From a virus: a stretch of DNA of 25,273 bases. The notes below the pieces were generated by a model. It was not told the origin of the DNA and made no database searches. It saw nothing but the letters and a program-made list of their open reading frames with translations. The stretch covers positions 1-25,273 of IMG/VR virus record IMGVR_UViG_3300009182_000298, one strand, 5' to 3'. The position numbers were made by a program, and so were the translations under genes. This document shows positions 6,201-20,185 of this stretch, piece by piece. Position 1 is the stretch's first letter. Every line of letters starts with the position of its first letter.

Positions 6201-6580
6201 ACCCCATTACCGGTGAGATGTCAACATCTAATGCAGCGGCGCAATTCTTTGGGTTTGCCCCCGCCGAATACACCCGTCAGCTAGAGATCAACGCTTCCCT
6301 AAAGAACATCGACCGACGCGCCGCTACACAACGCACCAAGGCGTTGCGCGACTACTACATTGCTGCACGGGTCGGGGATACTGATGGGATGGCTGATGCC
6401 ATGGAGGACATGATGAAGTTCAACCGTGCCCACCCCGGATATGCGATTACAGCTAAGACGGTGCAGAATTCTATGGCTCAGCACATGAGAACAACTCAGT
6501 CTATGTACCACGGCGTTACCTTCAGCAAGGGTATGCGCAACGAGCTATTGCAGAACGCTTCGGAGTTTGACGAGGATTAA
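266..6580 (+). CDS. Giant polyvalent internal virion protein with metalloprotease motif (PLxRFG-like)
   Basis: A protein of 2,104 residues, with ATG 266 preceded by GGAAGG. Visible in order: an N-terminal helical part with Ala/Gly-rich hydrophobic stretches (about residues 80-100, 138-165 and 245-265); a long charged, low-complexity middle; a K-P-E-A repeat linker (about 772-826); a zinc-metalloprotease signature HEVVH at 1059-1063 followed by acidic residues near 1103-1107 that could give the third ligand; and a long helical C-terminal half with hydrophobic segments near 1589-1620 and 1832-1862. The C-terminal part (GERMNRQ, KNSLGKVLFMYKRYG) resembles large phage polyvalent proteins often labelled PLxRFG. 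Such proteins are thought to be packaged in the virion and ejected with the DNA. The protease could act on the virion or on host targets. Family placement is moderate; the exact role is inferred. Confidence 0.75.
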   Translation: MDLQNVLTALRNADAAGDTQAAQQLARIAQSMRSAPSEESDIEARLQQLRAEREELLKPKPTVGGNIKEAFKGVVPGAIGLLETAGTGIAALLPDDTEKAVREQIKEIAGVAKKPFEASAGYEDSVGRKLGEGLGSTLPFFAAGPLGIVGRVAASGLGVAAGAGEAREGAEAKGATKEERSTATLLGAPTGLLDMLAPQIKPFKSLVGTALARGGIEGATEAAQKIAQNLIAKGVYDPEQPIVAGSGEEGAYGAGVGALASLIVDMTVGRKARRASLGLDKETPAPGGEKPAAGQQLLGYTPPTPMVTPEGETLTTTEQQEAYAARKKADAQQRVQDIQTSDPLANLSADQRDLARRGKEAALAEAFGQKQEPGQLGLPGIEREDGTVEVPGQGRISPKAVEEVRAGEEVAPKQDTQTRDMIDELETQQIEEMQQADAAKQDKAKADEARLKFESDLAELTGQVDRKQEKTTQDTRLELLLPIVESDTKNIPKAFVQSLKREGITNTNLTDRERDLINRAYDIRLAEAPVFETLPVIKQPEGQLKAIESLIPEKKSQRVPEQVGFPGMGKPKGAAPQAFSKEELALQEDQDKQFDTVLTPEVLASAGLPKQSGFYKQLLNMDMADAAQQPIVANIFGRIRTNASLSASTKDAVENLAMRAFGGLAKQGDMFVPATPTTPTNTTKEGKKDATPAKPAAKEPVARGRGTDTGNVAGGTRTSDAGSKVSGGEDKRAGVSADTEQPKAPKSAGLGSSGKPANVSGVRASVEPSALKKAEPKAEAKPEAKPEVKAAPKVEKAKPETKAEAKPEVKAEAKPEAKSTAKPEKAQSNASFGAYGQVMEAESRSDALDYLAYDMYIAMFEKFKLLTRIDTLNDINAQLRNGQIPEVAFGREGTTSIVPLSGGKYAKAFYESLTTADKKALAGKMAEHFGASENAVRRGTAQFSAQQELARATSEQFNGDVLELAKDAATLSMPLHPAIRKALEAGDLRGALTMLGSQNLGRASTAAKKLSDAIGKTKVKLVAGLKNDAGNPVAGLYDPKTDTITLDAGAGLNNHVLLHEVVHAATSHVLDNKSHPVTKQLTELYNNVKDSLDTAYGAQSLDEFVAEAFSNPEFQQKLAGINPKGEPITALRRFMHAIRNFMRTLMGTGTKSMDTALDASDSLTNAILSPAPEYRDAGSLFAASLLGKSSAVFKSLDDRILSLPAMDNKIVSGIYELFREGVPSATKKIVLRSLPLNALTEVAKKDIPMAPKLSELEKLWSGAVDKRKQAAQATMKNIQNWIKGNPEKEATLNDVIANSTLEQVDPSKPRADYKGQQSESGADKQKVWDDLQPKWNKLGPEGQSAYKQMRDTYAKTYGELVDLLLARVDSSVKDKEDAKKLKAEIYQRLMAKGKIEPYFPLSRSGDYRLSYDLKGEHYVEHYENSVDRERAIKALEADGTAKNVQRFKSGDSKRTYKDAPSTSFVNSVLRTLDANKVDPEVTDEIMRTFLNMMPESSFAQAFRKRKNTPGFNFDATATFYTRSMGMAHQMANLEYGNKMYQLRDEIEEHVKTKNTTEPARAMADELNGHIKTLVSPEIAPWSKALTSTAFGWTLGFNVSSAVVNLSQVPLVMVPYLGGKYGYSETTKAIGSATRLFFGSGLKRNAEMTVPTADGKSKIELKASFSLDNYDFDAKGVPEDVKQLKELSEVAADYGLLSRSLTHDILDMDEKSTVLNRVNAWSGFIFHHGERMNRQVSLIASYKLELERMAKAGEDINSASRTEAAKRAVEITELMNGGASAGSAPLLAKNSLGKVLFMYKRYGVSMYYMMFKTAREAMKSEDKQVRDAAMRQIVGIYASAGMMAGVQGLPMFGILAAVYNLFKGDDEDDAETAARKYLGEGLFNGAVNYLTGSAISNRIGLSDLLISSTGYKEQDNAMLAFMQLMGGPVYGVADRIQQGVKMINEGDTERGLERMLPAGIANGMKGIRFATEGANTLRGDPITGEMSTSNAAAQFFGFAPAEYTRQLEINASLKNIDRRAATQRTKALRDYYIAARVGDTDGMADAMEDMMKFNRAHPGYAITAKTVQNSMAQHMRTTQSMYHGVTFSKGMRNELLQNASEFDED

Positions 6581-6660: not shown

Positions 6661-6924
6661 TCACAGCCGCCGCCAAATGCGAACCCCCCAGCGCCCTTTA
6701 TCAATACCGGGCCTGTAGTGCATAACCCACCCCCACTCACTTGTTAGCTCGTGTACTTGCCGCACAAGTTCCAGCGTGTTTATGCAGGGGATGAACACCG
6801 AAGAGTCCACCGGAAACTCATCCCAACGGACAACAATCCGCACCCCATCGGGTGCGATGTCGTTAATCCTAATCCTGTTTTTCGAACAGCGCGGCGGTTG
6901 TCGCCATAATTTGCTCAGTTTCAT
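6661..6924 (-). CDS. Small conserved phage protein, unknown function
   Basis: The last gene of the leftward block, up to 87 residues, ending at TGA 6661-6663. The recognisable core is IAPDGVRIVVRWDEF, then SVFIPCINT, then WGVRIWRRL at the C-terminus. I recall similar short proteins near replication genes in other phages, but no function. The start is uncertain. ATG at 6924 would overlap the primase gene by 56 bases and has no clear ribosome-binding site. Similarity seems to begin near RINDIAPDG, so translation may instead start at an ATT overlapping the primase stop (ATTAG) or at a GTG a little further on. The alternating pattern and central Cys suggest a small beta-rich domain. Confidence 0.65.
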   Translation of the reverse strand: MKLSKLWRQPPRCSKNRIRINDIAPDGVRIVVRWDEFPVDSSVFIPCINTLELVRQVHELTSEWGWVMHYRPGIDKGRWGVRIWRRL

Positions 6925-9718
6925 CGTTCAAAAACCCTGTGCAGTCCAGTATTAAAACGTCGGTCGGGGGCAGGTTTACACGGGTGCCTTTGCCAAGCCT
7001 AGCTTTGGTCTTAATCGCCTTTGTACCCCCCGTCTTAAGACCGTCCACAAACCCTGCATAGTTGATCTGCTGCTTGCCGCACCACTCTTTCAACGGCTTA
7101 ACCAGCAAGTACAGCTTCTTAACGTCGTATTCATACCGCGCTACGAGTTGGCTTCGCGGTACGCCGTCTGGTTGCACGAGGTGATCCAGCATGCCAGCGG
7201 TAGTTCTTGAGTCATCAGTTGACTTAATACGGAGCATGTTGTTGTAGTTTTCTGCCATGTAGTCGGTCAGTTGGGACTCAACACTCACGTTCATCTCGCT
7301 AACCATAGCTTTGGCATCGGCCATAACTTTGATAATCCACTGCACAATCGGCGCAATTTTCCAATCAATCAGTCCCGCCTTTTTAGCTACCATCAACGCT
7401 GCAATATCACGTGAGGCCAAAGCAGACCAATACCTGTTTTCAGCGGAAAGCTGCGATTCTGTATCCAGTCTCTTCTGTACCGCCTTGGTAAGTTCGTTAA
7501 CTGCATCCAAATTATTCAGGATGTACTGTACGAAAATCACACCAGCATGCCCGTAGTTGTCTTTTATAGCGGCGCTAAATACGTCGGTCTCAGCCTTGGT
7601 TGCAAACTTAACGGGCTCAACACGGCATTCAAGTACCCGCTGGGCTTCGGCTTGTGGCAGTGCTTTGTACAGTGCGATACGCTCTAGCATTGAGGTGTTA
7701 CCCGTTGTGCCAAACAAAGTCTTCCAAGGCTTGCCTCGAACGCGCTCTACGTTACCCTTTGGCCCCATACGATTACGCTGCAAGCCACTAGGAATTTGGT
7801 ACGCCCAGTCCGACAAGTCTTTTGGGCTAGTGTTGGTCATCTCGTCCATGTAGCAGACGATGTTCTTATACACCTCGGCACGATTCATTTTTGAATTGAA
7901 CGTGTCTCGCTCCTGCATGACCAACAGATCGGGATCGCCCCAAACGGATGCACCTGCGTACATCGCCGTGGTCTTGCCCAAACCGGAACCCTTACTCCAT
8001 GCATGGAAAGCGGCAGCGTTGATAGGCTGAAACTCCATTAAGACAGAACCCAACGACAATCCAAACATGAACTGGTGCAACTCCATATTCGGCTGGTTGT
8101 AAAACTGCATGGTTTCTTTCCACTTCTCCAGCGTACCCTTAGTCTTAAAGATCGGGAACAGCCCTACGGTGGCAGAAGAGGGTGAACTTATGTCCACTCG
8201 GTCTTTAAAAATTTCCATGTTGCCAACAACAAACGACTCGTGGGATTTGTCTTTCCATCCAAACTGTCGGCATGCTTCGTCCGCCTCGGAGGTGAACTGC
8301 AACTCATTAACCCATTTCATTGTGTACTCCATAAGTTCTTGTACGTTAAGAACAGCCACGCCTTGTGAGGCAAGTAGCTTGCGAAATTCGTCTTTTGTAC
8401 CCACTGCGGTGAGGGGCACCATAAATTCTCGAACACCATCACGAGGGAGGTGCAACCGCATCACCACAGACTCCCCAATCTCAGGGTCAACTACGCGCCG
8501 GATGACATAAAGATCGTTGAAGTAAATCAGTTGGTCTTTGTCTTCCCCTTCCTCGTCTTTACCGTGCTTGAACACGCCACCGTTTTTACCCCTAAAAAAC
8601 GGGTGTGGGTACTTGGGTATCACGTATGCACGGGGGGTAGCCGCCGGTACGCCCAAGGGTTTTTCAAAAACTAAGTTGTCTGACTCTTCAGCTTCCTGAA
8701 CTTCTCTTCCGAGGGCTATAGGAGAACTGATCTTGCCCCAGTGCGGACACTCACTACAAACACCCCCACGGTACTCGTCAAACCTGCTGCACAAGTACGG
8801 GCCTTTGATCAGGTCTACCTTCTGCTCGGTGCTCTCAAATGTGTACTCAGGATGCTTCGATGAGATCTTATGGATTGCTTTACCGCCATCAACACAAAAT
8901 TTAGCTATCGACAACCCAGCCCTCCACAAGGGCTCTGATATGTTTGTTTGGTTGTTGATTACTTCCTTAAGTTGTTCACACCCAGTACCCGCAACGGTCT
9001 TGACCAAAATGGTCTTGAACTTGCTGATGTAGCTACCCGACAGGGCTTGCATCATTGCATCCTGCTGTCTAGGTACGTACTTCCTAGGTGGGGTCATCAC
9101 CGTTGCGTCGTCCCCTATGATGCTACAGAACGTGTCAAAGTCTACGGGTATACCGGGCTCCCCAACCAATACGACAGGTGCCGGAGGGTTAGACTTGTGG
9201 TTACTTGTATTGGGTACTCGTAGCACACGGGCCGCATCCGCTGGCACAGCAGGGTCTATCCGTAATCCTTTGGACTTGCACAGCCGCTTAAATTGTTCGG
9301 CAACATGCACCCAAGTTTCCCTAGCTACAGGGGTGGTTAGCGGCCAATACACGTGTATCCCACGACCGGAATTTATAAGCGTCGGGCGTGGTAGTTTTAG
9401 TTCTTTACAGAATATTCGTAACGCGCCTAGGGCTTCTGCCTGTGTCGCGTAGTCTTTATTTGGCCCACAGTCTATGTCTAAGAAGAATGACTTAAGCTGC
9501 TTTACGTTAGGTGCCTTGCGAGATCCAGCCTCTTCAAAAGTACCCAATGCAAAATAAGCGTCAAACCCTTCTGCGTTTAGATTGTGCGCAGCATGGACGG
9601 CGGTATCGAGGTCGGTGTAAAACTTCTGAATCTTGCGTTCATCGGATAGCCGATTAGCCCAGACGCAGTAGAAACCTTCGCCCCCCAGTACCGACTCCAG
9701 AAATGTTTTTGTTTCCAT
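6869..9718 (-). CDS. Primase-helicase fusion (AEP-type primase plus DUF927-like helicase)
   Basis: 949 residues counted from ATG 9718; a TTG at 9727 is in frame three codons earlier. The N-terminal third has archaeo-eukaryotic primase signs: FFLDIDCG (D81, D83) for metal binding, GRGIHVYWPL with the conserved His at about 122, and RVLRVPNTSNHK around 165-175. The C-terminal half resembles DUF927-type helicase modules: a Walker A-like SKGSGLGKTT (K582), the ASVWG block, and a Walker B-like CYMDE (D625, E626) followed by SGLQRNRMG and a GTTGN segment. It would prime and unwind DNA at the phage fork, in place of separate primase and DnaB genes. It follows a terminator (9760-9780) and has only a weak ribosome-binding site, so its expression may differ from the upstream SSB-like gene. 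Confidence 0.88.
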   Translation of the reverse strand: METKTFLESVLGGEGFYCVWANRLSDERKIQKFYTDLDTAVHAAHNLNAEGFDAYFALGTFEEAGSRKAPNVKQLKSFFLDIDCGPNKDYATQAEALGALRIFCKELKLPRPTLINSGRGIHVYWPLTTPVARETWVHVAEQFKRLCKSKGLRIDPAVPADAARVLRVPNTSNHKSNPPAPVVLVGEPGIPVDFDTFCSIIGDDATVMTPPRKYVPRQQDAMMQALSGSYISKFKTILVKTVAGTGCEQLKEVINNQTNISEPLWRAGLSIAKFCVDGGKAIHKISSKHPEYTFESTEQKVDLIKGPYLCSRFDEYRGGVCSECPHWGKISSPIALGREVQEAEESDNLVFEKPLGVPAATPRAYVIPKYPHPFFRGKNGGVFKHGKDEEGEDKDQLIYFNDLYVIRRVVDPEIGESVVMRLHLPRDGVREFMVPLTAVGTKDEFRKLLASQGVAVLNVQELMEYTMKWVNELQFTSEADEACRQFGWKDKSHESFVVGNMEIFKDRVDISSPSSATVGLFPIFKTKGTLEKWKETMQFYNQPNMELHQFMFGLSLGSVLMEFQPINAAAFHAWSKGSGLGKTTAMYAGASVWGDPDLLVMQERDTFNSKMNRAEVYKNIVCYMDEMTNTSPKDLSDWAYQIPSGLQRNRMGPKGNVERVRGKPWKTLFGTTGNTSMLERIALYKALPQAEAQRVLECRVEPVKFATKAETDVFSAAIKDNYGHAGVIFVQYILNNLDAVNELTKAVQKRLDTESQLSAENRYWSALASRDIAALMVAKKAGLIDWKIAPIVQWIIKVMADAKAMVSEMNVSVESQLTDYMAENYNNMLRIKSTDDSRTTAGMLDHLVQPDGVPRSQLVARYEYDVKKLYLLVKPLKEWCGKQQINYAGFVDGLKTGGTKAIKTKARLGKGTRVNLPPTDVLILDCTGFLNDETEQIMATTAALFEKQD

Positions 9719-9759
9719 AGCCGCCAATAGTTAAGGTTAAAGAGATGACTGAAAAGAAA

Positions 9760-11752: not shown

Positions 11753-11781
11753 ATTATAGTAGCAGTTTTTAACTTACGCAA
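11753..11781 (-). promoter_or_regulatory. Sigma70-like promoter
   Basis: On the minus strand TTGCGT (complement of 11776-11781) is followed after 17 bases by a perfect TATAAT (complement of 11753-11758). The -35 element matches only in its first three bases but the -10 is ideal and the spacing is optimal. It overlaps the last codons of the helicase gene and lies just upstream of the GTG-start gene. Confidence 0.65.
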
Positions 11782-13312
11782 GTATTTCTTTGTAAAGATC
11801 AACTATTTTTGAGTGAACATCAATTTTGTTATCTAATAAGTTGTAAACGTGTCTTTCTACACCAGACCCCGCGAGCTGCACTACTGTAGATGGGTGTCGT
11901 TGGCCGGAGCGGTGTACCCGTGCATTAGCTTGGGCGTATGTTTCCAAGCTGGATGTTGGCCCCCACCATACAACCGTGTTCGCTGCGGTAAGTGTTACGC
12001 CATGGGCAGCAGATTGGGGCTGAATCACCAGCACTCTCGGGTTGGGTGATTCTTGGAATCGTTTAAATATGTCCGTGCGTTTGTTGACTGGCACGTCCCC
12101 ACTAATCACTTCGGTGGTGTACCCGTCGGCGTTAAGTTTCTCGTGCAAGATGCTGATGACATGCTTGAACGGTACAAATACCAATACCTTTTGGCTGGAT
12201 TCGTCAATCACTTCGGTGAGCACGTTGTATCTGTTCTTGATGTCAAACTCTAAGGTTTCACCCGAATCGGAGTACACCGCGCCACAAGATATTTGCAGGA
12301 GCTTGGACATGTTCACTGCGGCGTTGACCGACGTGATCTCTTCCCCTGCGGCCTGAACTACCATTCTGCTCTTGAGCATGGTGTAGTAGCGTTCTTGTTG
12401 CTTGGTTAATTCGACGCGCCGTTTGGTGTATGTCATCTCGGGCAAGTCAAGGCACTCGTCCTTGGTGTATCGAATGGCGGGTTGCAGTGCCTCGTACACT
12501 GTTTTGGTAGCAGTCTCTTTGGCTATCCATTTGAAGTTAGTCAGCTTCAGCATGACTTGATCGCGGTAGGATGTGAAGTATTTAGGTACTCCGTTCGGGT
12601 TGACCAGCTTAGCCAGCCCATACGCATCGAGAGGGGACTGCGCAGCGGGGGTGCCTGTCATCATCCAAAGCCATGTATCTGCCTTGACAAGGGAGTTGAG
12701 CACCTTCCAGCGTTTAGTCTGTACGTTCTTATAGGCGTTTGCCTCGTCGATCACAATCAAGTCAAACCCGCCATTGGCAATGTCCTCGGCTACGATTTCT
12801 ACGCCGTCATAGTTGATGATCACAAACTCTGAGTTGCCGTTGATGATGGCCTTGCGCTTGTCCTTGGCCCCGTATGCGATGTCAACAGAGCGGTGCATAG
12901 CAAATTTAAATAGGTCAGCCCTCCATGCGGAATCCATAATGGACAGGGGGCATATCACCAGCACCCGATTGACGCGCTTTTGCTTGAGTAAATAGTCTGC
13001 CGCCCAAATGACTGAGCCCGTTTTGCCTGTGCCTTGCTCGTTCAAACAAAACGCACGGCGGTTCATAGTGAGGAATGCGGAGGTTGTTTTCTGATGGTCA
13101 AACGGCTTGAACTGGCCGGGCCAGTCGTAGCGTCCCATGATGGGTGATGGCACGTTTTTTACACGTAGATTTCTGAGGACTTGTGCCTCGTCTAAGCCCC
13201 AATGCACTAGCACCTGATTGTTAGGCAGCACTTTGCTCTTAGGGATTACCGTTGTGATGCGGTGCGGGTTACGCAGCGTCAGCAACAGCGCCTTGTTATC
13301 AATTATTTCCAA
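11774..13312 (-). CDS. SNF2/SF2-type DEAD-like helicase
   Basis: 512 residues with all main superfamily 2 motifs: Walker A NEQGTGKTGS (K97), motif II VIDEAN (D189, E190), motif III MMTGTP (219-222), and, in the second RecA-like lobe, motif V QPQSAAHGVTLTAAN and motif VI ARVHRSGQ (R465, R468, Q471). It is shorter than cellular SNF2 remodellers, as is usual for phages. It would translocate on DNA using ATP, most likely in replication, recombination or clearing bound proteins. The start is TTG 13312, supported by GGAGAACGAA directly before it; no ATG fits. It is the first gene after a promoter at 13385-13413 with a 5' leader of about 65 bases. Confidence 0.93.
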   Translation of the reverse strand: MEIIDNKALLLTLRNPHRITTVIPKSKVLPNNQVLVHWGLDEAQVLRNLRVKNVPSPIMGRYDWPGQFKPFDHQKTTSAFLTMNRRAFCLNEQGTGKTGSVIWAADYLLKQKRVNRVLVICPLSIMDSAWRADLFKFAMHRSVDIAYGAKDKRKAIINGNSEFVIINYDGVEIVAEDIANGGFDLIVIDEANAYKNVQTKRWKVLNSLVKADTWLWMMTGTPAAQSPLDAYGLAKLVNPNGVPKYFTSYRDQVMLKLTNFKWIAKETATKTVYEALQPAIRYTKDECLDLPEMTYTKRRVELTKQQERYYTMLKSRMVVQAAGEEITSVNAAVNMSKLLQISCGAVYSDSGETLEFDIKNRYNVLTEVIDESSQKVLVFVPFKHVISILHEKLNADGYTTEVISGDVPVNKRTDIFKRFQESPNPRVLVIQPQSAAHGVTLTAANTVVWWGPTSSLETYAQANARVHRSGQRHPSTVVQLAGSGVERHVYNLLDNKIDVHSKIVDLYKEILA

Positions 13313-13413: not shown

Positions 13414-13706
13414 GCGGATTTTTTTCCGCCTTTTTCTTTTACGCTATGGCCGTTCCTTGCACGGTTCTTTGCAGGGGTAATGATGCGCAGCCCGTCCTTA
13501 TTAGACCCACCCTTGGATAACATCTTTATGTGGTCAATGTCTTTGCCTTCACGCTTGTCGGCTGTACCGTTTCCGTTTTTGTCGGGGGAACTGGCATCAA
13601 CTTTTCGACGGGCACGTTGACGTTCCATACGTTCGTCAAGCTCACCACGTTTCTTCTGCATTTCGTACTCGTGACGATAGGGTCTAGGACTTTTTGTATA
13701 AGGCAT
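13410..13706 (-). CDS. Small HNH endonuclease-like protein
   Basis: 98 residues from ATG 13706, preceded by AAAGGTGG; longer frames to 13835 lack such a site and overlap the upstream HNH gene heavily. The N-terminus is very basic and helical (RHEYEMQKKRGELDERMERQRARRK). The C-terminal half has the HNH-like core DIDHIKMLSKGGSNKDGLRIITPAKNRARN, with His, GG and Asn in the usual spacing. The short length and lack of a recognisable DNA-recognition domain resemble the small HNH proteins common in phages. It overlaps the preceding gene by 23 bases and its end carries the -35 of the helicase promoter. It may be a nicking or packaging-associated enzyme or a relic of a mobile endonuclease. Confidence 0.75.
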   Translation of the reverse strand: MPYTKSPRPYRHEYEMQKKRGELDERMERQRARRKVDASSPDKNGNGTADKREGKDIDHIKMLSKGGSNKDGLRIITPAKNRARNGHSVKEKGGKKSA

Positions 13707-14163
13707 GATCTGCCACCTTTCTGCACCAATCAATAAATTCGCCAAGTGGTGTGTCAATACGGAACTTGTTAAGCGCCGCGCACACCAGTTGCACATTATC
13801 CAGCGTATACGTACCTTTAGGGTCAATTCGGTCAATGCTAGCGTTGGTTTTACTCACAACCCCCTTCTGCAAAGCACATGTCAACTCAATGCCTGATAAG
13901 GCGCACTTCCCGTCTTGAGTAGTAAGAAGCCGCATCATCATGTCAGTGGTTAACCCTTCCCGTTTGAAACTGCGGGTGCATAGCCTATTAAAGTACCGTA
14001 CCCAATTACCACTTACCCGCTCGTATTGCCGCTCCGTTAAACCTGACGCTGTAATAGGTCGGCATACCCGAGAACAGTACTTGTGGTTGTTATTGGTAGC
14101 CGCGAACTTAACCTCACAAGTGGGGCACACTCGCGTGTTACGTACGGGCTTACCTTTGGGCAT
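13684..14163 (-). CDS. HNH endonuclease with N-terminal zinc ribbon
   Basis: 159 residues from ATG 14163, chosen over an earlier ATG at 14217 because GGAAGGAG lies 6 bases before it. Residues about 10-35 form a zinc-ribbon-like CPTC...YCSRVC. The C-terminal half holds an HNH-type core: CALSGIELT, NASIDRIDPKGTYTLDNVQLVC and a tail FRIDTPLGEFIDWCRKVADH. This matches a family of phage endonucleases often thought to be free-standing homing enzymes. It starts 3 bases from the end of the PD-(D/E)XK nuclease gene and overlaps the next HNH gene by 23 bases, so two HNH genes stand in tandem. Confidence 0.85.
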   Translation of the reverse strand: MPKGKPVRNTRVCPTCEVKFAATNNNHKYCSRVCRPITASGLTERQYERVSGNWVRYFNRLCTRSFKREGLTTDMMMRLLTTQDGKCALSGIELTCALQKGVVSKTNASIDRIDPKGTYTLDNVQLVCAALNKFRIDTPLGEFIDWCRKVADHALYKKS

Positions 14164-14165
14164 TA

Positions 14166-14843
14166 CTAACTCCTTCCGTTGTGTTGGCATGATAAAACAA
14201 CGCAATGCTTTTTGCAAAGCCCAGACGTTTTAGGGTTCCACACGTCTGTCTCATAAGCTCTTTTCATGCGACCGTGATCTCGTAACCATTTCTCCCATAG
14301 CTTGGGTTCATCTGATCTATCGTAGCTCGCCTTGGGGAACTGCTGAGCAATAACAAACAACAGCCCAGCCTTAACCCGCTTGACCTCGGGGAAGTGCTTG
14401 AACACCGCAAGTGCCATCATCTCAAGTTGCCCAGTGTCTGCGTACTTAGCACTCTTTCCGGTCTTGTAGTCCACTACTCGTGCAGTGCCGTCGTCTTCAA
14501 GGATGATCAAGTCAGCAATACCTCGCCACCAAACATCTGAATCCTTAAACCCACAAGGCTCTAAGTTTTCAGTCAGCCCCATCTCGTACTCACATAGCTT
14601 ACGGCCCGGCCTCACCTTGAGGTTATCCAATGAACTCTTAGCGTATGTGAACTGTGGGGGCAGTGGGGTGTTGTCGCGTATGTAAAGTTCAGCCGCCTCA
14701 TGAAAGGCGGTGCCGTATGTAAGGTGCTCTGCGTTCTGATCTTCTTGGAAGTCTTTAGCTACCTTCAGGTGGTAGAACTTCTTTGGGCATTGTTCAAACG
14801 TCTTGATCGACGAAAACGACCATGCCGGTATCTTAATTGTCAT
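14166..14843 (-). CDS. PD-(D/E)XK nuclease, Cas4/AddB-like with iron-sulfur cysteines
   Basis: 225 residues. The N-terminus is typical of RecB-family nucleases (WSFSSIKTFEQCPKKFYHLKV, then TYGTAFHEAAE with the conserved His). The catalytic core is GIADLIIL (D111) followed by VVDYKTGK (D125, K127) and a QLEMMALAVF segment. One early cysteine (C19) and three late ones (C210, C214, C219) match the pattern that binds a 4Fe-4S cluster in Cas4 and AddB. No cas1 or cas2 and no CRISPR array are present, so it is a stand-alone phage exonuclease, probably for recombination or DNA processing. The start overlaps the end of a 34-residue membrane protein gene. Confidence 0.9.
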   Translation of the reverse strand: MTIKIPAWSFSSIKTFEQCPKKFYHLKVAKDFQEDQNAEHLTYGTAFHEAAELYIRDNTPLPPQFTYAKSSLDNLKVRPGRKLCEYEMGLTENLEPCGFKDSDVWWRGIADLIILEDDGTARVVDYKTGKSAKYADTGQLEMMALAVFKHFPEVKRVKAGLLFVIAQQFPKASYDRSDEPKLWEKWLRDHGRMKRAYETDVWNPKTSGLCKKHCVVLSCQHNGRS

Positions 14844-14937
14844 CGTTAGATTCCGCTAAAAATAATTTGATGGTGATGTACACAGACAGCGCTAAGGTCA
14901 CGCCGCCAAGTGCTAATAGTAAAAAGATTTCAATCAT
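14833..14937 (-). CDS. Single-span membrane microprotein, 34 residues
   Basis: A short gene: ATG 14937 overlaps the upstream stop as ATGA and is preceded by AAGGAG. It encodes MIEIFLLLALGGVTLALSVYI and a short tail ending AESNDDN, then stops at TAA 14833, overlapping the nuclease start by 11 bases. Residues about 3-27 are a clear transmembrane helix with a short acidic tail. The start signal and both overlaps fit the chain of coupled genes around it, so I take it as real. No function is known. A small holin-like or membrane-modulating role is possible, but nothing in the sequence shows it. Confidence 0.7.
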   Translation of the reverse strand: MIEIFLLLALGGVTLALSVYITIKLFLAESNDDN

Positions 14938-15122
14938 GTGTTCTTCTCCTTGAATGTGTCGATGCAAGAGCAGCCACGCTCCATGCAAGCGGGATCGAGT
15001 TCGGGAATGTGTTTATCAATGGCTTCGGCAACCTTTTGGCGCAACAGGCTGGGGCTTGCGTGGTATAGCACAGCGATGTTCATCAGTTCTTCGACAAGCG
15101 GTTTGGATTGCTCGTATCTCAT
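14934..15122 (-). CDS. Microgene product, 62 residues, unknown
   Basis: Starts at ATG 15122, overlapping the upstream stop, with GGGAG in the upstream tail as ribosome-binding site. The product is helical (SKPLVEELMNIAVLY, LLRQKVAEAIDKHI) with three cysteines near the end (ACMERGCSCIDT). It finishes KEKNT, whose codons AAGGAGAAGAACACATGA form the ribosome-binding site and start of the next gene. It lacks the GLTDKE module of its neighbours but keeps the tail type. No function is recognised. Confidence 0.7.
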   Translation of the reverse strand: MRYEQSKPLVEELMNIAVLYHASPSLLRQKVAEAIDKHIPELDPACMERGCSCIDTFKEKNT

Positions 15123-15151
15123 GTGTTCAACTCCCGCAACTTAGCCTCGAT
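15119..15151 (-). repeat. 33-base direct repeat, copy 1 (gene junction)
   Basis: Identical to 15427-15459. It encodes the shared C-terminal IEAKLRELNT plus the stop codon, and contains the ribosome-binding site and ATG of the downstream gene. The two copies are 308 bases apart and bracket one gene. Confidence 0.95.
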
Positions 15152-15430
15152 CTCCCTAATGCATTGCATCTGATAGGGTGATAGGTCGCCGTCCCAGCAC
15201 TCTTCAATCTCTTTGTCTGTCAGCCTTACCCATGTGCGCTGTGGTGGGTAATTGTTGCGACTACAAGCAACGCACTCATAAAGAATTTCTGCTTTGCATT
15301 CAGGGCATAAAGGGCGCTGAGGCCGTTCAAAGTAAGTTCGAATGACATGGTTCTCTTTTGTAGGGTCAATGATTTCAACAAATGTTTTGCCCCATGCGGC
15401 CTTGGTTTCAATGACTTCATCTTCATTCAT
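15119..15430 (-). CDS. Zinc-ribbon microprotein with GLTDKE-type C-terminal module
   Basis: 103 residues. The middle has a zinc ribbon CPEC-x7-CVAC (C42, C45, C53, C56). The C-terminal 38 residues carry the module WVRLTDKEIEE...MQCIREIEAKLRELNT, which recurs in the products of 15427-15672, 16692-16952 and 17161-17409. ATG 15430 overlaps the upstream stop as ATGA. The gene is bracketed by the 33-base direct repeat, so recombination between the copies would remove exactly this gene and leave intact junctions. The combination of zinc ribbon and short helical module suggests a binding or adaptor protein; function unknown. Confidence 0.8.
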   Translation of the reverse strand: MNEDEVIETKAAWGKTFVEIIDPTKENHVIRTYFERPQRPLCPECKAEILYECVACSRNNYPPQRTWVRLTDKEIEECWDGDLSPYQMQCIREIEAKLRELNT

Positions 15431-15459
15431 GTGTTCAACTCCCGCAACTTAGCCTCGAT
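15427..15459 (-). repeat. 33-base direct repeat, copy 2 (gene junction)
   Basis: Identical to 15119-15151; holds the last ten codons, the stop and the overlapping start codon at the junction of two microgenes. Confidence 0.95.
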
Positions 15460-15672
15460 GTTCTGTATCCCCACAATGAAGTTGCCCTTCTTTAAAGTCT
15501 TCGCAAACTCCGTCACTTCATCAGCGGTTAGCCCTGACCAAGGGCGTGTACTTTCCGCTCTTAGTGCGGCTTTCTTCAGCGCTTTGTTCTCTGCCACAAG
15601 TTCGTTAATCTGATTAAGAACATCCTTCAGCATTTCAGAAGTCTCGTGGAGTGCCCTCATTGCGTCAGTCAT
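15427..15672 (-). CDS. Coiled-coil microprotein with GLTDKE-type C-terminal module
   Basis: 81 residues. Residues about 5-45 form a coiled coil (LHETSEMLKDVLNQINELVAENKALKKAAL). After that comes the shared module PWSGLTADEVTEFAKTL...IVGIQNIEAKLRELNT. The start overlaps the upstream stop (CTATGA) and GGAGG is in the upstream end. The N-terminus MTDA is the same as in the gene before it. The last ten residues are identical to those of the next gene because both share the 33-base repeat. Function unknown. Confidence 0.78.
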   Translation of the reverse strand: MTDAMRALHETSEMLKDVLNQINELVAENKALKKAALRAESTRPWSGLTADEVTEFAKTLKKGNFIVGIQNIEAKLRELNT

Positions 15673-15818
15673 AGCAGTGCCTCCGGTACATCAAGTTGTG
15701 GTTTAGGTTGCTTACGGTTAAGTTGTCGTAACGCATCCCCAGTGGCGCGTGTGAAAGGCCACCACTCGTTCCACTTGATCTCTTTGGGCTTCTTGCGTTT
15801 TGTTTCTGCGTCAGTCAT
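15669..15818 (-). CDS. Basic microprotein, 49 residues, unknown
   Basis: ATG 15818 is chosen: GGAG lies 10 bases before it and the overlap with the upstream stop (ATGACTGA) fits the coupled chain; a longer frame to 15878 has no such support. The product is basic and aromatic, MTDAETKRKKPKEIKWNEWW then PFTRATGDALRQLNRKQPKP and an end DVPEALL whose codons hold GGAGG for the next gene. The cluster KRKKPK and three Trp residues suggest a nucleic-acid or protein binder. Not recognised. Confidence 0.65.
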   Translation of the reverse strand: MTDAETKRKKPKEIKWNEWWPFTRATGDALRQLNRKQPKPQLDVPEALL

Positions 15819-15969
15819 GTTTGCCCGTCTCCTTTTGTGGCAAAGTTTGCGTAATAAAGCGCACAGCAGTGTCGCCATCTTTTAGTAGCACCGTTATCGT
15901 TGCGGCTTGCAAGTCACTGCCGTAAATCAGCATCAGTGCTTCCATGATTCTTTGTGTCTCGTTGTTCAT
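15811..15969 (-). CDS. Microprotein, 52 residues, unknown
   Basis: ATG 15969 overlaps the upstream stop as ATGA, with AAGGGGAC as ribosome-binding site inside the upstream RARGQA codons. An in-frame ATG at 16002 lies in the upstream gene and has no such support. The product reads MNNETQRIMEALMLIYGSDL, then AATITVLLKDGDTAVRFITQ and a polar end; it looks like a small alpha/beta fold. I recognise no family. Confidence 0.68.
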   Translation of the reverse strand: MNNETQRIMEALMLIYGSDLQAATITVLLKDGDTAVRFITQTLPQKETGKHD

Positions 15970-15984
15970 GCTTGTCCCCTTGCT
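15966..15984 (-). repeat. 19-base junction repeat, copy 1
   Basis: Identical to 16199-16217. On the coding strand it reads AGCAAGGGGACAAGCATGA, joining the RARGQA end of one gene, a ribosome-binding site, the stop and the overlapping start of the next. A 14-base core also occurs at 20435-20448. Confidence 0.9.
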
Positions 15985-16202
15985 CGGATGGCGGCGGCGC
16001 ACTCTTTAGCCAAGTTGTATGGTGTACCGTCATCGGTTTCTTCGCACAACTTTGCACAGGCTTCGCGCTCCTCGTCAAGTAGCATTTTTATTTTGTCCCC
16101 ATACATCGACACCACAATTGTCGGCAGGTTGATTGCTCGGGCGCGGTCGTACAAATCAATGTCTTCAGGGGTTAAGGTAACAATAACATCGTGCTCAATC
16201 AT
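15966..16202 (-). CDS. Microprotein with EREACA...AIRARGQA tail
   Basis: 78 residues, ATG 16202 overlapping the upstream stop as ATGA. The N-terminal part (MIEHDVIVTLTPEDIDLYDR) seems distinct and alpha/beta-like. The C-terminal 35 residues are the shared module EEREACAKLCEET...AKECAAAIRARGQA, also seen in the products of 16199-16456 and 16453-16695. From memory this tail is widespread in small phage and prophage proteins with variable N-termini, with no known function. The last codons serve as ribosome-binding site for the next gene. Confidence 0.8.
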   Translation of the reverse strand: MIEHDVIVTLTPEDIDLYDRARAINLPTIVVSMYGDKIKMLLDEEREACAKLCEETDDGTPYNLAKECAAAIRARGQA

Positions 16203-16217
16203 GCTTGTCCCCTTGCT
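16199..16217 (-). repeat. 19-base junction repeat, copy 2
   Basis: Identical to 15966-15984, at the same place relative to the genes (end of one, start of the next). Confidence 0.9.
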
Positions 16218-16456
16218 TTGATAGCATCAAGATTGTCAATACAAGCCGCCCATGCTGATTTTGCCGTCGGGTTTTGTTCAAGCCCAGCATACACATCAGC
16301 ATGTTTCTTGCAAATTTCAGCACAGGCCTCGCGCTCGGCTTCGATTGCACTGTTAACTAACCGCAAAACCTCTTCGTCACAATCCATTAAACGTTTAAAC
16401 GCAACAAGGTTTAGCTGTTGCTTGTGGAATAGTAGGTTGTATTCATCCCATGTCAT
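16199..16456 (-). CDS. Microprotein with EREACA...AIKARGQA tail
   Basis: 85 residues, ATG 16456 overlapping the upstream stop as ATGA, with GAGGTGA as ribosome-binding site. The N-terminal half (MTWDEYNLLFHKQQLNLVAF, KRLMDCDEEVLRLV) is helical and unlike the neighbours. The C-terminal module is AEREACAEICKKHADVY...NLDAIKARGQA. The cysteines of the module (EACA.IC and AACI) are retained. Unknown function. Confidence 0.8.
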   Translation of the reverse strand: MTWDEYNLLFHKQQLNLVAFKRLMDCDEEVLRLVNSAIEAEREACAEICKKHADVYAGLEQNPTAKSAWAACIDNLDAIKARGQA

Positions 16457-16695
16457 GCTTCACCTCTTGCTCGGATGGCATCCGCAATGATCTCAGAGTA
16501 GTTGCGTTCAGGCCCGTCAGCGTATTCGTCAGCCAACTTTGCACAGGCCTCACGCTCGGCAATGCAACAAGGTTTATTTGGTTGTTGCTCTCGTAAATCC
16601 ATTAAGCTTTGTAGTCTTGCAACTCTTCGTTCCCAAATTTCGCGCTCTTTGGCGGCTGCTTGTATCGCTATCTCAATGATTTCATCTTGTGTCAT
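16453..16695 (-). CDS. Microprotein with EREACA...AIRARGEA tail
   Basis: 80 residues, ATG 16695 overlapping the upstream stop as ATGA with GGGAGAAG before it. The N-terminal half is a charged helix (DEIIEIAIQAAAKEREIWERR). The module follows as CCIAEREACAKLADEYADG...IIADAIRARGEA; the second Cys of the module is replaced by Ala here. A 13-base DNA stretch at the 3' end is identical to that at 15979-15991. Unknown function. Confidence 0.8.
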   Translation of the reverse strand: MTQDEIIEIAIQAAAKEREIWERRVARLQSLMDLREQQPNKPCCIAEREACAKLADEYADGPERNYSEIIADAIRARGEA

Positions 16696-16952
16696 GCGTT
16701 CTTCTCCCGCAGTCGCTCTTGCACCGCCGCCACTAGGTCAAACGGCGCGTCTTTCTTGTCAAGCATCAAGGACATGCTCTCTTCGTCAGTCAGGTCTTTC
16801 CATCCATTTTTATACGCATACGACAAAGCATGTTGTAGTACGTCCTTGGCATGGCACAGCGCTTCTGTGGACTCGCTCAACTGCATAGGGGTAGTTGCAT
16901 CAAGCTCTAGCTTGATGGCTTCAATGGCAAATTTAATAGCTTCGATAATCAT
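16692..16952 (-). CDS. Microprotein with GLTDKE-type C-terminal module
   Basis: 86 residues, ATG 16952 overlapping the upstream stop as ATGA, with AAGGAG in the upstream codons. The N-terminal half is helical (IIEAIKFAIEAIKLELDA, ALCHAKDVLQHALSYA). The C-terminal module is GWKDLTDEESMSLML...LVAAVQERLREKNA, related to the tails of 15119-15430, 15427-15672 and 17161-17409. The REKNA codons hold the ribosome-binding site for the next gene. Unknown function. Confidence 0.8.
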   Translation of the reverse strand: MIIEAIKFAIEAIKLELDATTPMQLSESTEALCHAKDVLQHALSYAYKNGWKDLTDEESMSLMLDKKDAPFDLVAAVQERLREKNA

Positions 16953-17116
16953 GTGGTCTCCTTGTCAAGTTCATATTCACGTTCTACGCGATCAATAGCT
17001 GCTTGCATGGCCTCCAACCTTTTGATGGCTTCAATCACTTCCTGCTTCTCCTTGACAGATAGCGTTCGTGACGTTCGTAAACCATTTAAAGAGTTTAAGA
17101 TGGACTCGATACTCAT
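16949..17116 (-). CDS. Helical microprotein, 55 residues, unknown
   Basis: ATG 17116 is chosen because TAGGAG lies 6 bases before it; ATGs at 17140 and 17137 lack a good site. The product MSIESILNSLNGLRTSRTLS continues as VKEKQEVIEAIKRLEAMQAA and IDRVEREYELDKETT, almost entirely a charged helix, probably a coiled coil. The last codons (AAGGAGACCACATGA) form the start signal of the next gene. There is a 44-base gap upstream, one of few in this array. Confidence 0.7.
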   Translation of the reverse strand: MSIESILNSLNGLRTSRTLSVKEKQEVIEAIKRLEAMQAAIDRVEREYELDKETT

Positions 17117-17160
17117 AATATCTCCTAAAAAATCCATCATAAAGGCCACTCGTTACTCTT

Positions 17161-17409
17161 CTAGCTATTCCTTCTTCTCAATTCGTTCTCGATTGCTCGG
17201 GCAAACGTTAAGTAAACATTACCGTTCGTTTGCTTGCGTACATCTTCTAGGATGTCCGAAATGTCTTTCTCTCTAAGCCCTTCCCACGGCCCTTTGCTGG
17301 CGGCTGTACTGGGCTTGACTTGGGTATAAAGTTTCTTACATTTGCTACACGCCCATTCCGATGAACGGTTAGCACTTACATCCACCCAAACGTGTTCATC
17401 ACATGTCAC
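17161..17409 (-). CDS. Zinc-binding microprotein with GLTDKE-type module (GTG start)
   Basis: 82 residues from GTG 17409, preceded by GAGGAGGAG at 7 bases; a longer frame up to 17517 runs through the upstream microgene and has no such signal. The N-terminus has C3 and H6 and a CSKC pair (C21, C24) that together could bind zinc (CDEHVW...WACSKCKKLY). The C-terminal module is PWEGLREKDISDILEDV...FARAIENELRRRNS. The architecture (zinc site plus module) parallels the product of 15119-15430. Unknown function. Confidence 0.72.
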   Translation of the reverse strand: MTCDEHVWVDVSANRSSEWACSKCKKLYTQVKPSTAASKGPWEGLREKDISDILEDVRKQTNGNVYLTFARAIENELRRRNS

Positions 17410-17563
17410 TGTATTGCTCCTCCTCAACTCTGTTAGCGAGGGCATCGCGGAGTGCGTCAATAGCGTTGTCCACAAAACCCTCATCGAATGACGGGAGCTT
17501 GTTAAACTCCCGCACAACCTCTAGCGCCTTAAGCGCTAGTTCGGCAGCTTCTTTCAGCTTCAC
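17399..17563 (-). CDS. Helical microprotein, 54 residues (GTG start)
   Basis: GTG 17563 overlaps the upstream stop as GTGA and the frame ends at TGA 17399-17401. The product is KLKEAAELALKALEVVREFN followed by KLPSFDEGFVDNAIDALRDA and LANRVEEEQYSDM: two amphipathic helices of a kind I have seen in small phage proteins. The start lacks a strong ribosome-binding site and may depend on coupling. The last codons include GAGGAGGAG, the site for the next gene, which supports this frame being translated. Confidence 0.62.
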   Translation of the reverse strand: MKLKEAAELALKALEVVREFNKLPSFDEGFVDNAIDALRDALANRVEEEQYSDM

Positions 17564-17733
17564 GCGCGTTCGGACAGAATCCGCTCGGGGTCGCGCTTTG
17601 GCTCAGGAGCTTTCTCAGCCTTCTCGGGCTTAGCTTCTTGCTGTACCTTGACCTCAGCCGCTTTCTTTTCATCAGCCTCGATGCGTTTGATTGGCTCTAC
17701 TGGTGGTTTGTGACTTACTGATTCAATTCTCAT
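17560..17733 (-). CDS. Lys/Pro/Glu-rich microprotein, 57 residues
   Basis: ATG 17733 has GGAG 7 bases upstream and overlaps the previous gene by 11 bases; the frame ends at TGA 17560-17562, which overlaps the next GTG. The product begins MRIESVSHKPPVEPIKRIEA and continues with a disordered stretch KAAEVKVQQEAKPEKAEKAP, ending PERILSERA. The composition resembles the K-P-E-A linker of the giant virion protein. No family is recognised. Confidence 0.62.
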   Translation of the reverse strand: MRIESVSHKPPVEPIKRIEADEKKAAEVKVQQEAKPEKAEKAPEPKRDPERILSERA

Positions 17734-17896
17734 TTTCTAACTCCTGTAAAAATAAAATTACTGATCCCAACTCTTCTGCCATCCTCCGCTGAACTATCGG
17801 GTTGCCCCGCCCCTTGGCGCTAGCCTCTAACAACTCAGCGGCTTTGGTCAGCGAATCAATCGCATGCCCCAACCTCTCAATGTGTTCTGCTTTCAT
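17723..17896 (-). CDS. Helical microprotein, 57 residues, downstream of polymerase
   Basis: ATG 17896 is placed two bases after the polymerase stop, with GGAG in the polymerase's last codons about 10 bases upstream. The product MKAEHIERLGHAIDSLTKAA, then ELLEASAKGRGN and a helix RRMAEELGSVILFLQELENEN is all-helical. It may be a small accessory of the replication module but nothing shows this. Unknown. Confidence 0.7.
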   Translation of the reverse strand: MKAEHIERLGHAIDSLTKAAELLEASAKGRGNPIVQRRMAEELGSVILFLQELENEN

Positions 17897-17898
17897 GG

Positions 17899-19725
17899 TT
17901 AACAATCTCCATAAGATTTGCCACTGCCCGACTCACAATTAACTGGTAACCCTGTCGCCCACTCAGGCACCCACCGCATGCACTCTTCAACGTACTGCGT
18001 TGCAGGTACAACTTCCGCGTCGGGTACACATACAGCAATCGCGTCATGTACTGTTAGCACAACCTTGTACCGCCTACCAATCTTCAGCATCTGCTCAGCT
18101 ATGATACACCTTGCTATCGCCTGACAGGCATTCTCAATCACCTTACCGCCGTATATACGGGCGCGACCCTTGCGTATTTTGTAATGAAACTCCACACCCT
18201 TCTCGGTCTGGTCAAACTTCAAGTCGTCGTACCGCATCAGTAACCCTGACGGCAACCGTATCGCTGTCTCACTAGGTATCACTTCAAGTACGCCTGCACG
18301 TCCAAGTGGTGCGTGATCTCCCCGTGACATATTTACAAGAGCGTTCTGCGCCTGACGCCACAACCTGACCACAGCATCATTAGTGCGTCGGTAAATGTCA
18401 ACGATGCGTTTAGCCTCGTCTGCATCCACCTCGACACCCATAGTCTTAAGTTGGGCTTGGAACTTCACTGCACCCATGCCGTACCCTGCGCCAAGAATCG
18501 TGGTCTTACCCACGAACCGCTCTTCCTTGCTGATCTCGAACTCGGGCTTGCCGTAGATAGCCGAAGCCATCTTCTTGTACACGTCCTTACCCTCAGCAAA
18601 AGCTGTTACCAAGTCATCTTGCCCCGCCAACCATGCCAGCACCCGCGCCTCAATCTGTGCAGAGTCCGCATCAATGATGGTGTAGCCCTCGGGCGCAATG
18701 ATTGACTTCTTCAGCTTGTTGGCGTTGTTGCCACGGCTTGGCAAGTTTTGCATGTTGATCTTGTCATCACCACCAAACCGTCCGGTGTGTGCGGCGTAGT
18801 AACGGATCGGTACAGGCAAACTACCGCGCTTTGATATGTCAATGAACCGTTGCGTACGTGTCTCTTCAAGTGTCGATTTCGTACCTAGCCGTGCGGATAC
18901 AAGGGCTTGCACCTTGGGGTCGTCGTGTTCTGCGAGGGCTTTGAACTCTTCATCACTCTTAGCGAATGCGTAGGTCTGCTTACCCGTGGCAGGGCTCTCC
19001 TTCATAGGGGGCTCAACTCCACACGAGCGCAACAACTCCGCAAACTTGTCATTGCTCATCAACTCTGCCTTATCTACACCTGACAGTGCTAGTAGGTCGT
19101 CCTTCATCTTCTTAATGCCGATGAGGTGTTGCTGTAGCATGTCACCGTCTAGCTCAAGTACAGGGTCAATAAACATACGCAGGGTCTGATCAATCACCTT
19201 AAGCTCTTGCTTGGGGAATGACTTAGCCATCTTGTGGAACAAGTTGTATGTAAGCTCTACGTCGTTAATACAGTAGTCGCCATACCGCGCAAGCTCTTCC
19301 TCGGTGAAGTCTACCAACCTCTTCCCAAGCGCATTGACCACCTCCGTACCCTTCTCCCCCAGCCTATACCTTTCAGCCAACGCTTTAAGCGAACCGCCAA
19401 CCTCCACACCGTGAACGGCACGGCCCATGCACAGAGTATCAAGCCACCCACGAGGCTCAATACCGAAGCGCCAAGATAATATAGCCCCATCAAAAAGGGT
19501 GTTGTGTGCCAAGACAAGATAGTTCTTCCAATCAAAACTGTCCTGAAGCCACCGTTTAAGTTGTGTATGCGTACCACTTGCCCACTCCGTTTCTTGGTTG
19601 TTAACTTTCACAGATACGCCAATGACTTCAAAGAGGTCAGAGCGTATGTACTCTTCCGTTGTGATCTTAGACAGCGAATAGTCGCGGTCGTAATACGTTT
19701 CAAAATCTACTGTAATTAAATCCAT
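17899..19725 (-). CDS. DNA polymerase I-like (family A) with 3'-5' exonuclease
   Basis: 608 residues from ATG 19725; a GTG three codons earlier is in frame. The exonuclease domain is intact: VDFETYYD (D7, E9), AHNTLFD (D79) and YCINDVELT (Y151, D155). Polymerase motif A is IIDADSAQIEARVLAWL (D354), motif B RFVGKTTILGAGYGMG (K407, Y415), motif C LTVHDAIAV (H560, D561). There is no 5' nuclease domain, as usual for phages. Oddities: motif C has Ala where E. coli Pol I has Glu883, and motif B has Leu where it has Phe762. As the only polymerase in the window it is very likely the replicative enzyme. The start lacks a strong ribosome-binding site, so coupling to the preceding gene, which ends one base away, is likely. 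Confidence 0.96.
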   Translation of the reverse strand: MDLITVDFETYYDRDYSLSKITTEEYIRSDLFEVIGVSVKVNNQETEWASGTHTQLKRWLQDSFDWKNYLVLAHNTLFDGAILSWRFGIEPRGWLDTLCMGRAVHGVEVGGSLKALAERYRLGEKGTEVVNALGKRLVDFTEEELARYGDYCINDVELTYNLFHKMAKSFPKQELKVIDQTLRMFIDPVLELDGDMLQQHLIGIKKMKDDLLALSGVDKAELMSNDKFAELLRSCGVEPPMKESPATGKQTYAFAKSDEEFKALAEHDDPKVQALVSARLGTKSTLEETRTQRFIDISKRGSLPVPIRYYAAHTGRFGGDDKINMQNLPSRGNNANKLKKSIIAPEGYTIIDADSAQIEARVLAWLAGQDDLVTAFAEGKDVYKKMASAIYGKPEFEISKEERFVGKTTILGAGYGMGAVKFQAQLKTMGVEVDADEAKRIVDIYRRTNDAVVRLWRQAQNALVNMSRGDHAPLGRAGVLEVIPSETAIRLPSGLLMRYDDLKFDQTEKGVEFHYKIRKGRARIYGGKVIENACQAIARCIIAEQMLKIGRRYKVVLTVHDAIAVCVPDAEVVPATQYVEECMRWVPEWATGLPVNCESGSGKSYGDC

Positions 19726-19726
19726 G

Positions 19727-20185
19727 TTATGCACCGTTAGTTGTTAGGGATTTCATAAGTTGGTTGGCAAGGTACTGCGCAAAGTGCAAATCAATTTCTT
19801 CATCAGGCATGACAGGTTCATCAAACACAGTCCTTGCCATTTCACACACGTCCTCAAATACCATCCTCTTCAAACCAAGCAGTTGAAACTTCTTGTCGGT
19901 CTCACGCCTCATGTATACCTTGTTCCAACCACAAGCGTGTCTATAGCACAAGCGTGGTGACGTATGTTCCCTGTGCGCAAACCCACTAACAACATCCTTG
20001 ACTTTACGGAGGGTATCGGTATCACCCCTGCCGCATATGTCACACACTATGCCTGTTGGTTTACGTACGTGCTGCTTGTACACGGCATCAATCTCCTTGA
20101 CTAGAGCAAGTATCTTCTCCCTAGTCTCACCATGTACATGTGGCCTGTCAGTCTGTTGCATGAAGTCAAGCGCCGACTTAAGCAT
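19727..20185 (-). CDS. Conserved phage protein with possible zinc site, unknown
   Basis: 152 residues. ATG 20185 overlaps the upstream stop by 8 bases (ATGCTTAA). The middle contains CDICGRGD (C48, C51) and, 29 residues later, C80, H83 and C85 (PRLCYRHACGWN), a plausible zinc-binding set. The N-terminal part is helical (REKILALVKEIDAVYKQHV) and the end is acidic and helical (MPDEEIDLHFAQYLANQLMK). It lies directly before the polymerase, so an accessory replication role is possible. Family not recognised. Confidence 0.75.
   Translation of the reverse strand: MLKSALDFMQQTDRPHVHGETREKILALVKEIDAVYKQHVRKPTGIVCDICGRGDTDTLRKVKDVVSGFAHREHTSPRLCYRHACGWNKVYMRRETDKKFQLLGLKRMVFEDVCEMARTVFDEPVMPDEEIDLHFAQYLANQLMKSLTTNGA

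Follow-up and report, generated by a model that had tools for sequence, protein, structure and literature searches.

How do adjacent small phage genes come to end alike when they begin differently? This question is raised by a 25,273-bp viral record from IMG/VR (IMGVR_UViG_3300009182_000298), which is called the window below and represents the whole stretch of DNA that was analysed. Its genes A (15966..16202, 78 aa), B (16199..16456, 85 aa) and C (16453..16695, 80 aa) were confirmed to lie on the minus strand, each in a 4-nt overlap (ATGA) with the next. Most probably, cassettes are exchanged under the guidance of homology at linkers within the coding sequence, in a phage island that is hypervariable, an answer that concerns the anatomy and mechanism of the exchange and not the function of the proteins.

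Shared endings of genes A, B and C

A sequence-only reading of this DNA had proposed that the three neighbours carry a common tail, EREACA...AI(R/K)ARG(Q/E)A, on unlike N-termini, and BLOSUM62 local alignment bears this out. The scores are 91 for A-C (shuffled 26.6+-5.0), 63 for A-B (25.0+-4.5) and 68 for B-C (28.3+-5.5), and 0/2000 shuffles reach the score of any pair, while the regions before EREACA score at the shuffle mean, i.e., at chance level. Of the two reported DNA repeats, that of 19 identical bases (15966 and 16199) is exact. The other exists, but it comprises 14 bases (CTTGCTCGGATGGC) at 15979 and 16466 and not 13 bases with a copy at 16465, and the DNA repeat at EREACA itself (16027-16070, 16293-16336 and 16514-16557) had been missed. 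Contrary to the same reading, the Cys positions are not all shared, the second Cys being present in A and B only and missing from C.

The tail is common only in part. It consists of two short conserved islands, EREACA and AIRARGxA, flanking a variable middle that is different in each of A, B and C and is itself exchanged. Gene A joins the N-cassette MIEHDVIVTLTPEDIDLYDRARAINLPTIVVSMYGDKIKMLLDE to EREACA, the middle KLCEETDDGTPYNLAKECA and AAIRARGQA; gene B has the N-cassette MTWDEYNLLFHKQQLNLVAFKRLMDCDEEVLRLVNSAIEA, EREACA, a long middle and AIKARGQA; gene C has an N-part ending in LQSLMDLREQQPNKPCCIA, followed by EREACA, the middle KLADEYADGPERNYSEIIA and DAIRARGEA.

The second island extends into the start of the following gene. 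The 3' island of A (15966..15992, minus strand) holds AIRARGQA with its stop codon, a Shine-Dalgarno sequence (AAGGGG) and the ATGA start of the next gene downstream (15811..15969, minus strand, 52 aa), which is ATGA-coupled and without the tail module. The island of B (16199..16225, minus strand) combines AIKARGQA and its stop codon with a Shine-Dalgarno sequence and the ATGA at which gene A starts, and that of C (16453..16479, minus strand) combines AIRARGEA and its stop codon with a Shine-Dalgarno sequence (AGAGG) and the ATGA at which gene B starts. AGG or AGA encodes the second Arg of ARG in 93% of cases (n=252 tails), compared with 26% of other Arg codons (n=1976), and 231/252 tail ends (92%) overlap the next start as ATGA. 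The Shine-Dalgarno bases are kept where the residues change (IRARE-stop, IRARK-stop), and the sequence after the stop, outside the island, is unrelated between same-tail genes. The AIRARGxA end therefore appears, on codon evidence, to be largely dictated by the Shine-Dalgarno sequence and the ATGA overlap. The earlier description of a tail plus start signal holds in this form, with the start signal explaining much of the terminal conservation, and serves as a warning that a conserved C-terminus can be a disguised ribosome-binding site.

The EREACA stretch is, judging from its synonymous sites, homologous DNA and not a product of convergence, since these sites are far from saturated. Synonymous divergence (pS) at EREACA is 0.55 between unrelated N-termini, against 0.985 expected from codon usage, and is similar to that within homologous N-cassettes (0.56-0.58). 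Its codon bias (GAG 85%, CGT 71%, GCG 79%, TGT 92%) is strong relative to the same ORFs and persists with one representative per N cluster. The third positions of the EREACA codons (GAG CGT GAG GCG TGT) are strongly biased, e.g., at 16053-16070, through shared ancestry alone or possibly through selection on the DNA or RNA itself. EREACA was also considered as a frame-independent DNA site; this was rejected, as 247/248 hits are in the same frame.

Re-pairing of gene parts and position of the joins

In order to follow the parts beyond the window, relatives were collected with a tail profile and with codon-degenerate patterns for N-parts and tails, yielding 254 records, some of which overlap, and in them 290 unique tail ORFs. 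The records are metagenomic with few exceptions, and since the loci were picked for containing these parts, frequencies among them are not population frequencies. A scan of bacterial genome contigs with the patterns gave 299 stretches with only 2 confirmed relatives, which makes the module a mainly viral one in the collections used. A tblastn search of tail proteins against GenBank phages gave nothing useful, probably because low-complexity masking hides the Ala-rich tail, and is thus no sign that relatives are absent there; searches of phages with the window's array by megablast and distant blastn gave no matches, and a literature search for the motif letters found nothing relevant. In one GenBank phage record (L260, MW202879.1), tail-module ORFs lie in an unannotated stretch at 1350-2663.

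Across the related viral contigs, the tail-bearing genes fall into 151 N-terminal clusters and display 275 distinct combinations of N-terminus and middle. After clustering, all multi-member N clusters (22/22) occur with more than one tail, and 33/46 multi-member tail clusters occur with more than one N-terminus. The window's own parts are found in other pairings. The N-cassette of B is joined to the A tail in L004 and L108, to the C tail in L104, to its own tail in L087, L102 and L112 and to a tail of a second type (W-type, see below) in L095; in total it was found in viral contigs with 11 distinct EREACA-type tails, its own included, plus other tail types. The N-cassette of A carries its own tail in L091, the C tail in L253 and other tails in L251, L252 and L028, and the A tail is found on a dozen N-termini (e.g., L003-L006, L108, L237, L247). 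Near-identical middles on unrelated N-termini share 78-92% DNA identity. The cassette shuffling proposed earlier is strongly supported by these pairings, which contradict the alternative outcome of its suggested tail-profile check for independent N-termini, namely that each protein and its tail evolve as a unit. Pairing is not fully random, with 56 same-N gene pairs sharing a tail against 29 expected by shuffling, as is to be expected where some pairings share common descent. Homogenisation of tails within one genome was not seen, neither at the 3' island, where copies of one record have 0.66 identity and those of different records 0.63, nor at EREACA (0.84 in both comparisons). A Cys/His-rich piece, roughly (I/D)HSC(H/G)xxCxxPxCxAV(R/K), precedes EREACA in tail genes of L086, L077, L080, L048 and L047; it looks like a further exchangeable part and is possibly metal-binding.

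The joins are sharply placed. In pairs with the same N-terminus and different tails, DNA identity is ~85% up to EREACA and 27-30% from +30 nt, and in pairs with the same tail and different N-termini the first base of EREACA marks a rise from ~0.4 to 0.91. As EREACA had served as divider for these initial pairs, the breakpoints were remapped from the gene ends only, without conditioning on it. Of 581 such unconditioned breakpoints, 82% fall within -6..+36 nt of EREACA, against 17% expected if they were uniform, and of the 141 anchored at the 3' end, i.e., in the tail, 91% are at the EREACA start. The N-cassettes begin exactly at the ATG, where identity changes from 0.40 to 0.88. Pairs that differ on both sides retain two islands, one at EREACA and the other at the 3' end/RBS/ATG, and the identity of the flanks is near random.

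The same edges emerge from BLASTN with the window, in which 62/154 ends of 77 hits sit on EREACA edges. At the hinge of A (the EREACA codons GAGCGCGAAGCCTGTGCA, 16053..16070, minus strand), 23/77 hits end at the upper edge; at the hinge of B (GAGCGCGAGGCCTGTGCT, 16319..16336, minus strand), 12 hits end at the upper edge and 19 start at the lower; and at the hinge of C (GAGCGTGAGGCCTGTGCA, 16540..16557, minus strand), 6 hits end at the upper edge. The match of L251 (16051-16336) begins at one copy of EREACA and stops at the following one, and L108 matches 16320-16457 and 15966-16070, joined over the EREACA bases, which is the product expected from a deletion between the B and A copies of EREACA. 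The parts are re-paired freely, they join at the EREACA codons and at the gene start, and the island codons fit the Shine-Dalgarno sequence and the ATGA overlap.

A second family of endings, (R)xWVGLTxEE...AIEAKLKEKNT (WVGLT...KLKEKNT in short; the W module), is found in four neighbours on the minus strand. These are the gene upstream of C (16692..16952, 86 aa), with the W-tail GWKDLTDEES...ERLREKNA (E 3e-7 to the W-tail profile), gene F (15427..15672, 81 aa), with RPWSGLTADEV...NIEAKLRELNT (E 8e-12), gene E (15119..15430, 103 aa), with RTWVRLTDKEI...EIEAKLRELNT, and gene J (17161..17409, likely GTG start at 17409), with GPWEGLREKDI...FARAIENELRRRNS (E 5e-10). A 33-base repeat, likewise missed earlier, encodes IEAKLRELNT, the stop codon and the next ATG; its two identical copies on the minus strand cover the end of E and the start of the next gene (15119..15151) and the end of F and the start of E (15427..15459). 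The W module was found in 193 ORFs of 122 records, 120 of which also hold EREACA tails, as expected from how the loci were chosen. Its end consists of AAGGAG and ATGA (overlap in 82/120), with Lys encoded by AAG in 94% and Glu by GAG in 92%, against about 45% and 40% elsewhere. Breakpoints follow the pattern of EREACA, here at the Trp codon, and the middle of gene E is found on another N-terminus in L247, its N-terminus with another middle in L004.

Genomic setting, mechanism and rival explanations

The minus strand of the window reads as a replication/early region, with predicted genes for a DUF927 primase-helicase (6869-9727), an SNF2-type helicase (11774-13312), an endonuclease VII-like protein (13684-14217), a PD-(D/E)XK exonuclease (phrog_69; 14166-14843) and a family A DNA polymerase (17899-19734). 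The exonuclease and polymerase genes are separated by about 3 kb of small genes, which are mostly coupled through ATGA overlaps. In L227, a backbone relative whose helicase, exonuclease and polymerase are 82-84% identical to those of the window, this interval holds 1.0 kb of different content (2023-3045), including one EREACA-tail gene, compared with 3.05 kb in the window (14843-17899). As its content is replaced in L227, the array looks like a hypervariable island at a fixed genome position. No annealing recombinase was recognised in the 25-kb fragment, in which the phrog_69 exonuclease and the endonuclease VII are present. Between the helicase and other early genes, the protein encoded at 11040-11459 matches phrog_13900 (1e-19), whose label 'minor head protein' is odd for this position. 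A single ORF of 2104 aa occupies 266-6580 on the plus strand, in the orientation opposite to the early region.

Searches of Pfam, PHROGs and NCBIfam gave no convincing E-value for A, B, C or eight relatives. The commonest class (44 sequences), a relative and not gene A, B or C itself, gave a good AlphaFold model (pLDDT 84.9, pTM 0.70) with three helices forming a helical hairpin, in which EREACA (45-50) lies inside the long second helix (31-55). According to this model, the joins fall mid-helix. The own model of gene A is poor (pLDDT 60.7, pTM 0.37), its tail helices being the same as in the model of the relative, and a structure search against PDB gave no significant match (best E 1.9). The N-B cassette, the YTTW cassette and four tail middles have pN/pS values of 0.12-0.37, indicating purifying selection, and look therefore like parts of working proteins; the value of 0.97 for the A N-cassette is unreliable, as a 4-aa insertion in L028/L121 shifts the ungapped alignment.

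We posit that the genes are assembled from interchangeable parts out of a pool common to many environmental tailed phages. Each gene would comprise an N-cassette that runs from the start codon up to EREACA, a middle that continues from there to about AIRARG, and a 3' island in which the final residues and the stop are combined with the ribosome-binding site and ATG of the following gene. The joins would arise by homology-guided recombination, by RecA or a phage Rad52-like annealing protein, at islands of ~18-27 nt. Exchange may take place within one array, where a deletion between two EREACA copies would leave the B N-cassette on the A tail (as in L108 and L004), or alternatively between co-infecting phages. 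With the reading frame and the central EREACA helix kept intact, most products could fold, and since the start signal of the next gene is part of the island, the operon would stay translatable.

The recombination might also be unguided. Illegitimate recombination could occur everywhere, with selection retaining in-frame joins that spare the fold and the next start, EREACA being merely a tolerated spot. Mosaicism in phages is usually explained in this way where boundary sequences have not been found (PMC3029335), and the explanation would fit both the helix, whose register would be kept, and the single frame of the motif (247/248 hits). We regard it as unlikely in view of the synonymous conservation of EREACA between unrelated proteins (pS 0.55 vs 0.985), which is expected if DNA is exchanged, the clustering of the joins within ~30 nt and not across the whole helix, and the like behaviour of the second, unrelated boundary of the W module. 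The unsaturated synonymous sites also contradict convergence, in which EREACA and AIRARG would have evolved several times over as motifs favoured in small helical hairpins, and so do the near-identical middles on unrelated N-termini (78-92% DNA identity); a helix-rich, Ala/Cys-rich motif in a modelled helical hairpin speaks for convergence, which we find scarcely conceivable nonetheless.

That the tail is a protein tag for targeting, degradation or partner binding, set on different effectors and conserved for that function, would agree with its presence in 151 N-terminal clusters and with purifying selection on its middles. We consider this very improbable: the residues between EREACA and AIRARG vary widely among genes, the conserved last residues follow the needs of the ribosome-binding site (AGG/AGA 93%, ATGA 92%) with Shine-Dalgarno bases that stay as residues change, the same N-cassettes are found ahead of tails of quite another kind (L095, L096, L110), and the mid-helix placement in the predicted structure is unlike a terminal tag. 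Boundary repeats of ~18-27 nt can confuse short-k assembly of metagenomic data, and assemblers might have fused unrelated genes at them. Such chimeras are hardly credible here because the same pairings recur in separate metagenomes, the B N-cassette with the A tail in 3300027963 and 3300032301, the B N-cassette with the LVNDENTIEYA tail in four metagenomes and the A tail with a FAKLVAQH-type N-terminus in six. Moreover, the parts are under purifying selection, and tail genes are present in phage records whose genomes were deposited as complete (OR003940, MW202867, MW202879), in some of which they are unannotated.

Homology-guided exchange at coding linkers is therefore the reading that we carry forward. 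Less firmly, we infer that the array is a hypervariable accessory locus of the early/replication region and that its helical microproteins target the host or the host's defences, so that fast re-pairing is favoured. The tail would then be one generic half of a small fold of helices and not a tag. That the proteins of the island serve host takeover or counter-defence is our guess among functions, and it may just as well prove wrong as right. It is possible, if rather doubtful, that environmental phages maintain a combinatorial system in which the linkers, lying inside a helix and at the translation start, serve as recombination sites, that new microproteins are made continuously from swapped halves while frame, fold and translation are kept, and that the linker DNA itself is selected for this.

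Relation to known mosaicism in phages

Classical phage boundary sequences have been described between genes or modules. The underlying boundary, or linker, idea, as summarized where it is cited in PMC3029335, is that short conserved junction DNA lets homologous recombination join unrelated modules. Our locus shares with linker mosaicism that short DNA is conserved at the junctions of otherwise unrelated segments and that different segments flank the same boundary in different genomes (22/22 and 33/46 clusters). It differs in that one boundary is intragenic, inside coding sequence and in the middle of a predicted helix, where it joins protein halves, and only the other is at a gene junction. 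It is a variant of linker mosaicism and not a plain member because of this boundary within the coding sequence.

The closest precedent is the pair of adjacent small genes 67 and 68 of mycobacteriophage Island3, which share their C-terminal 18 residues and ~60 bp of 3' DNA; the second gene of the pair is without known homologue, and the single copy in Brujita has been explained by recombination between the Island3 repeats (PMC3029335). That is one case in one phage pair, whereas here hundreds of genes and two tail families are involved, a boundary inside the gene (EREACA) is added to that at the 3' end, and the middle is exchanged as well. Rad52-like phage recombinases have been shown to carry out exchanges at short homologies in lambdoid phages, where small gene fragments are exchanged more often than complete modules (PMC3945230). 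Such relaxed recombination is alike in the enzyme activity proposed, and the short homologies are here a repeated sequence family.

The Start-Associated Sequences of Cluster K mycobacteriophages are repeats whose Shine-Dalgarno core lies shortly before the start of many non-structural genes, and they sometimes include the upstream stop codon; they measure 13 bp and, in the passages considered, do not figure as a shared protein tail or exchange point (PMC3203893). In our case the island also codes for the C-terminal residues that the upstream gene shares with others, and its consensus is GCAAGGGGACAAGCATGA and not the 13-bp GGGATAGGAGCCC found 3-7 bp before the start codon. Domain mosaicism shuffles fragments between otherwise unrelated phage proteins, and its authors expected it to be more frequent in proteins of unknown function (PMC10684548). 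The cases considered from that source are structural, lysis and replication proteins with recognised domains, whereas here proteins of ~80 aa are joined within one helix.

The exchange described here offers a concrete route to phage orphan small proteins, in which existing halves are re-paired at shared coding linkers. That homology ends mid-protein may explain why such proteins resist family classification, the profile libraries having given no match. The pool of parts is defined well enough for direct tests of short-homology exchange and of re-paired proteins. What is known among these systems is mosaicism at boundary sequences, and what is new is its intragenic variant.
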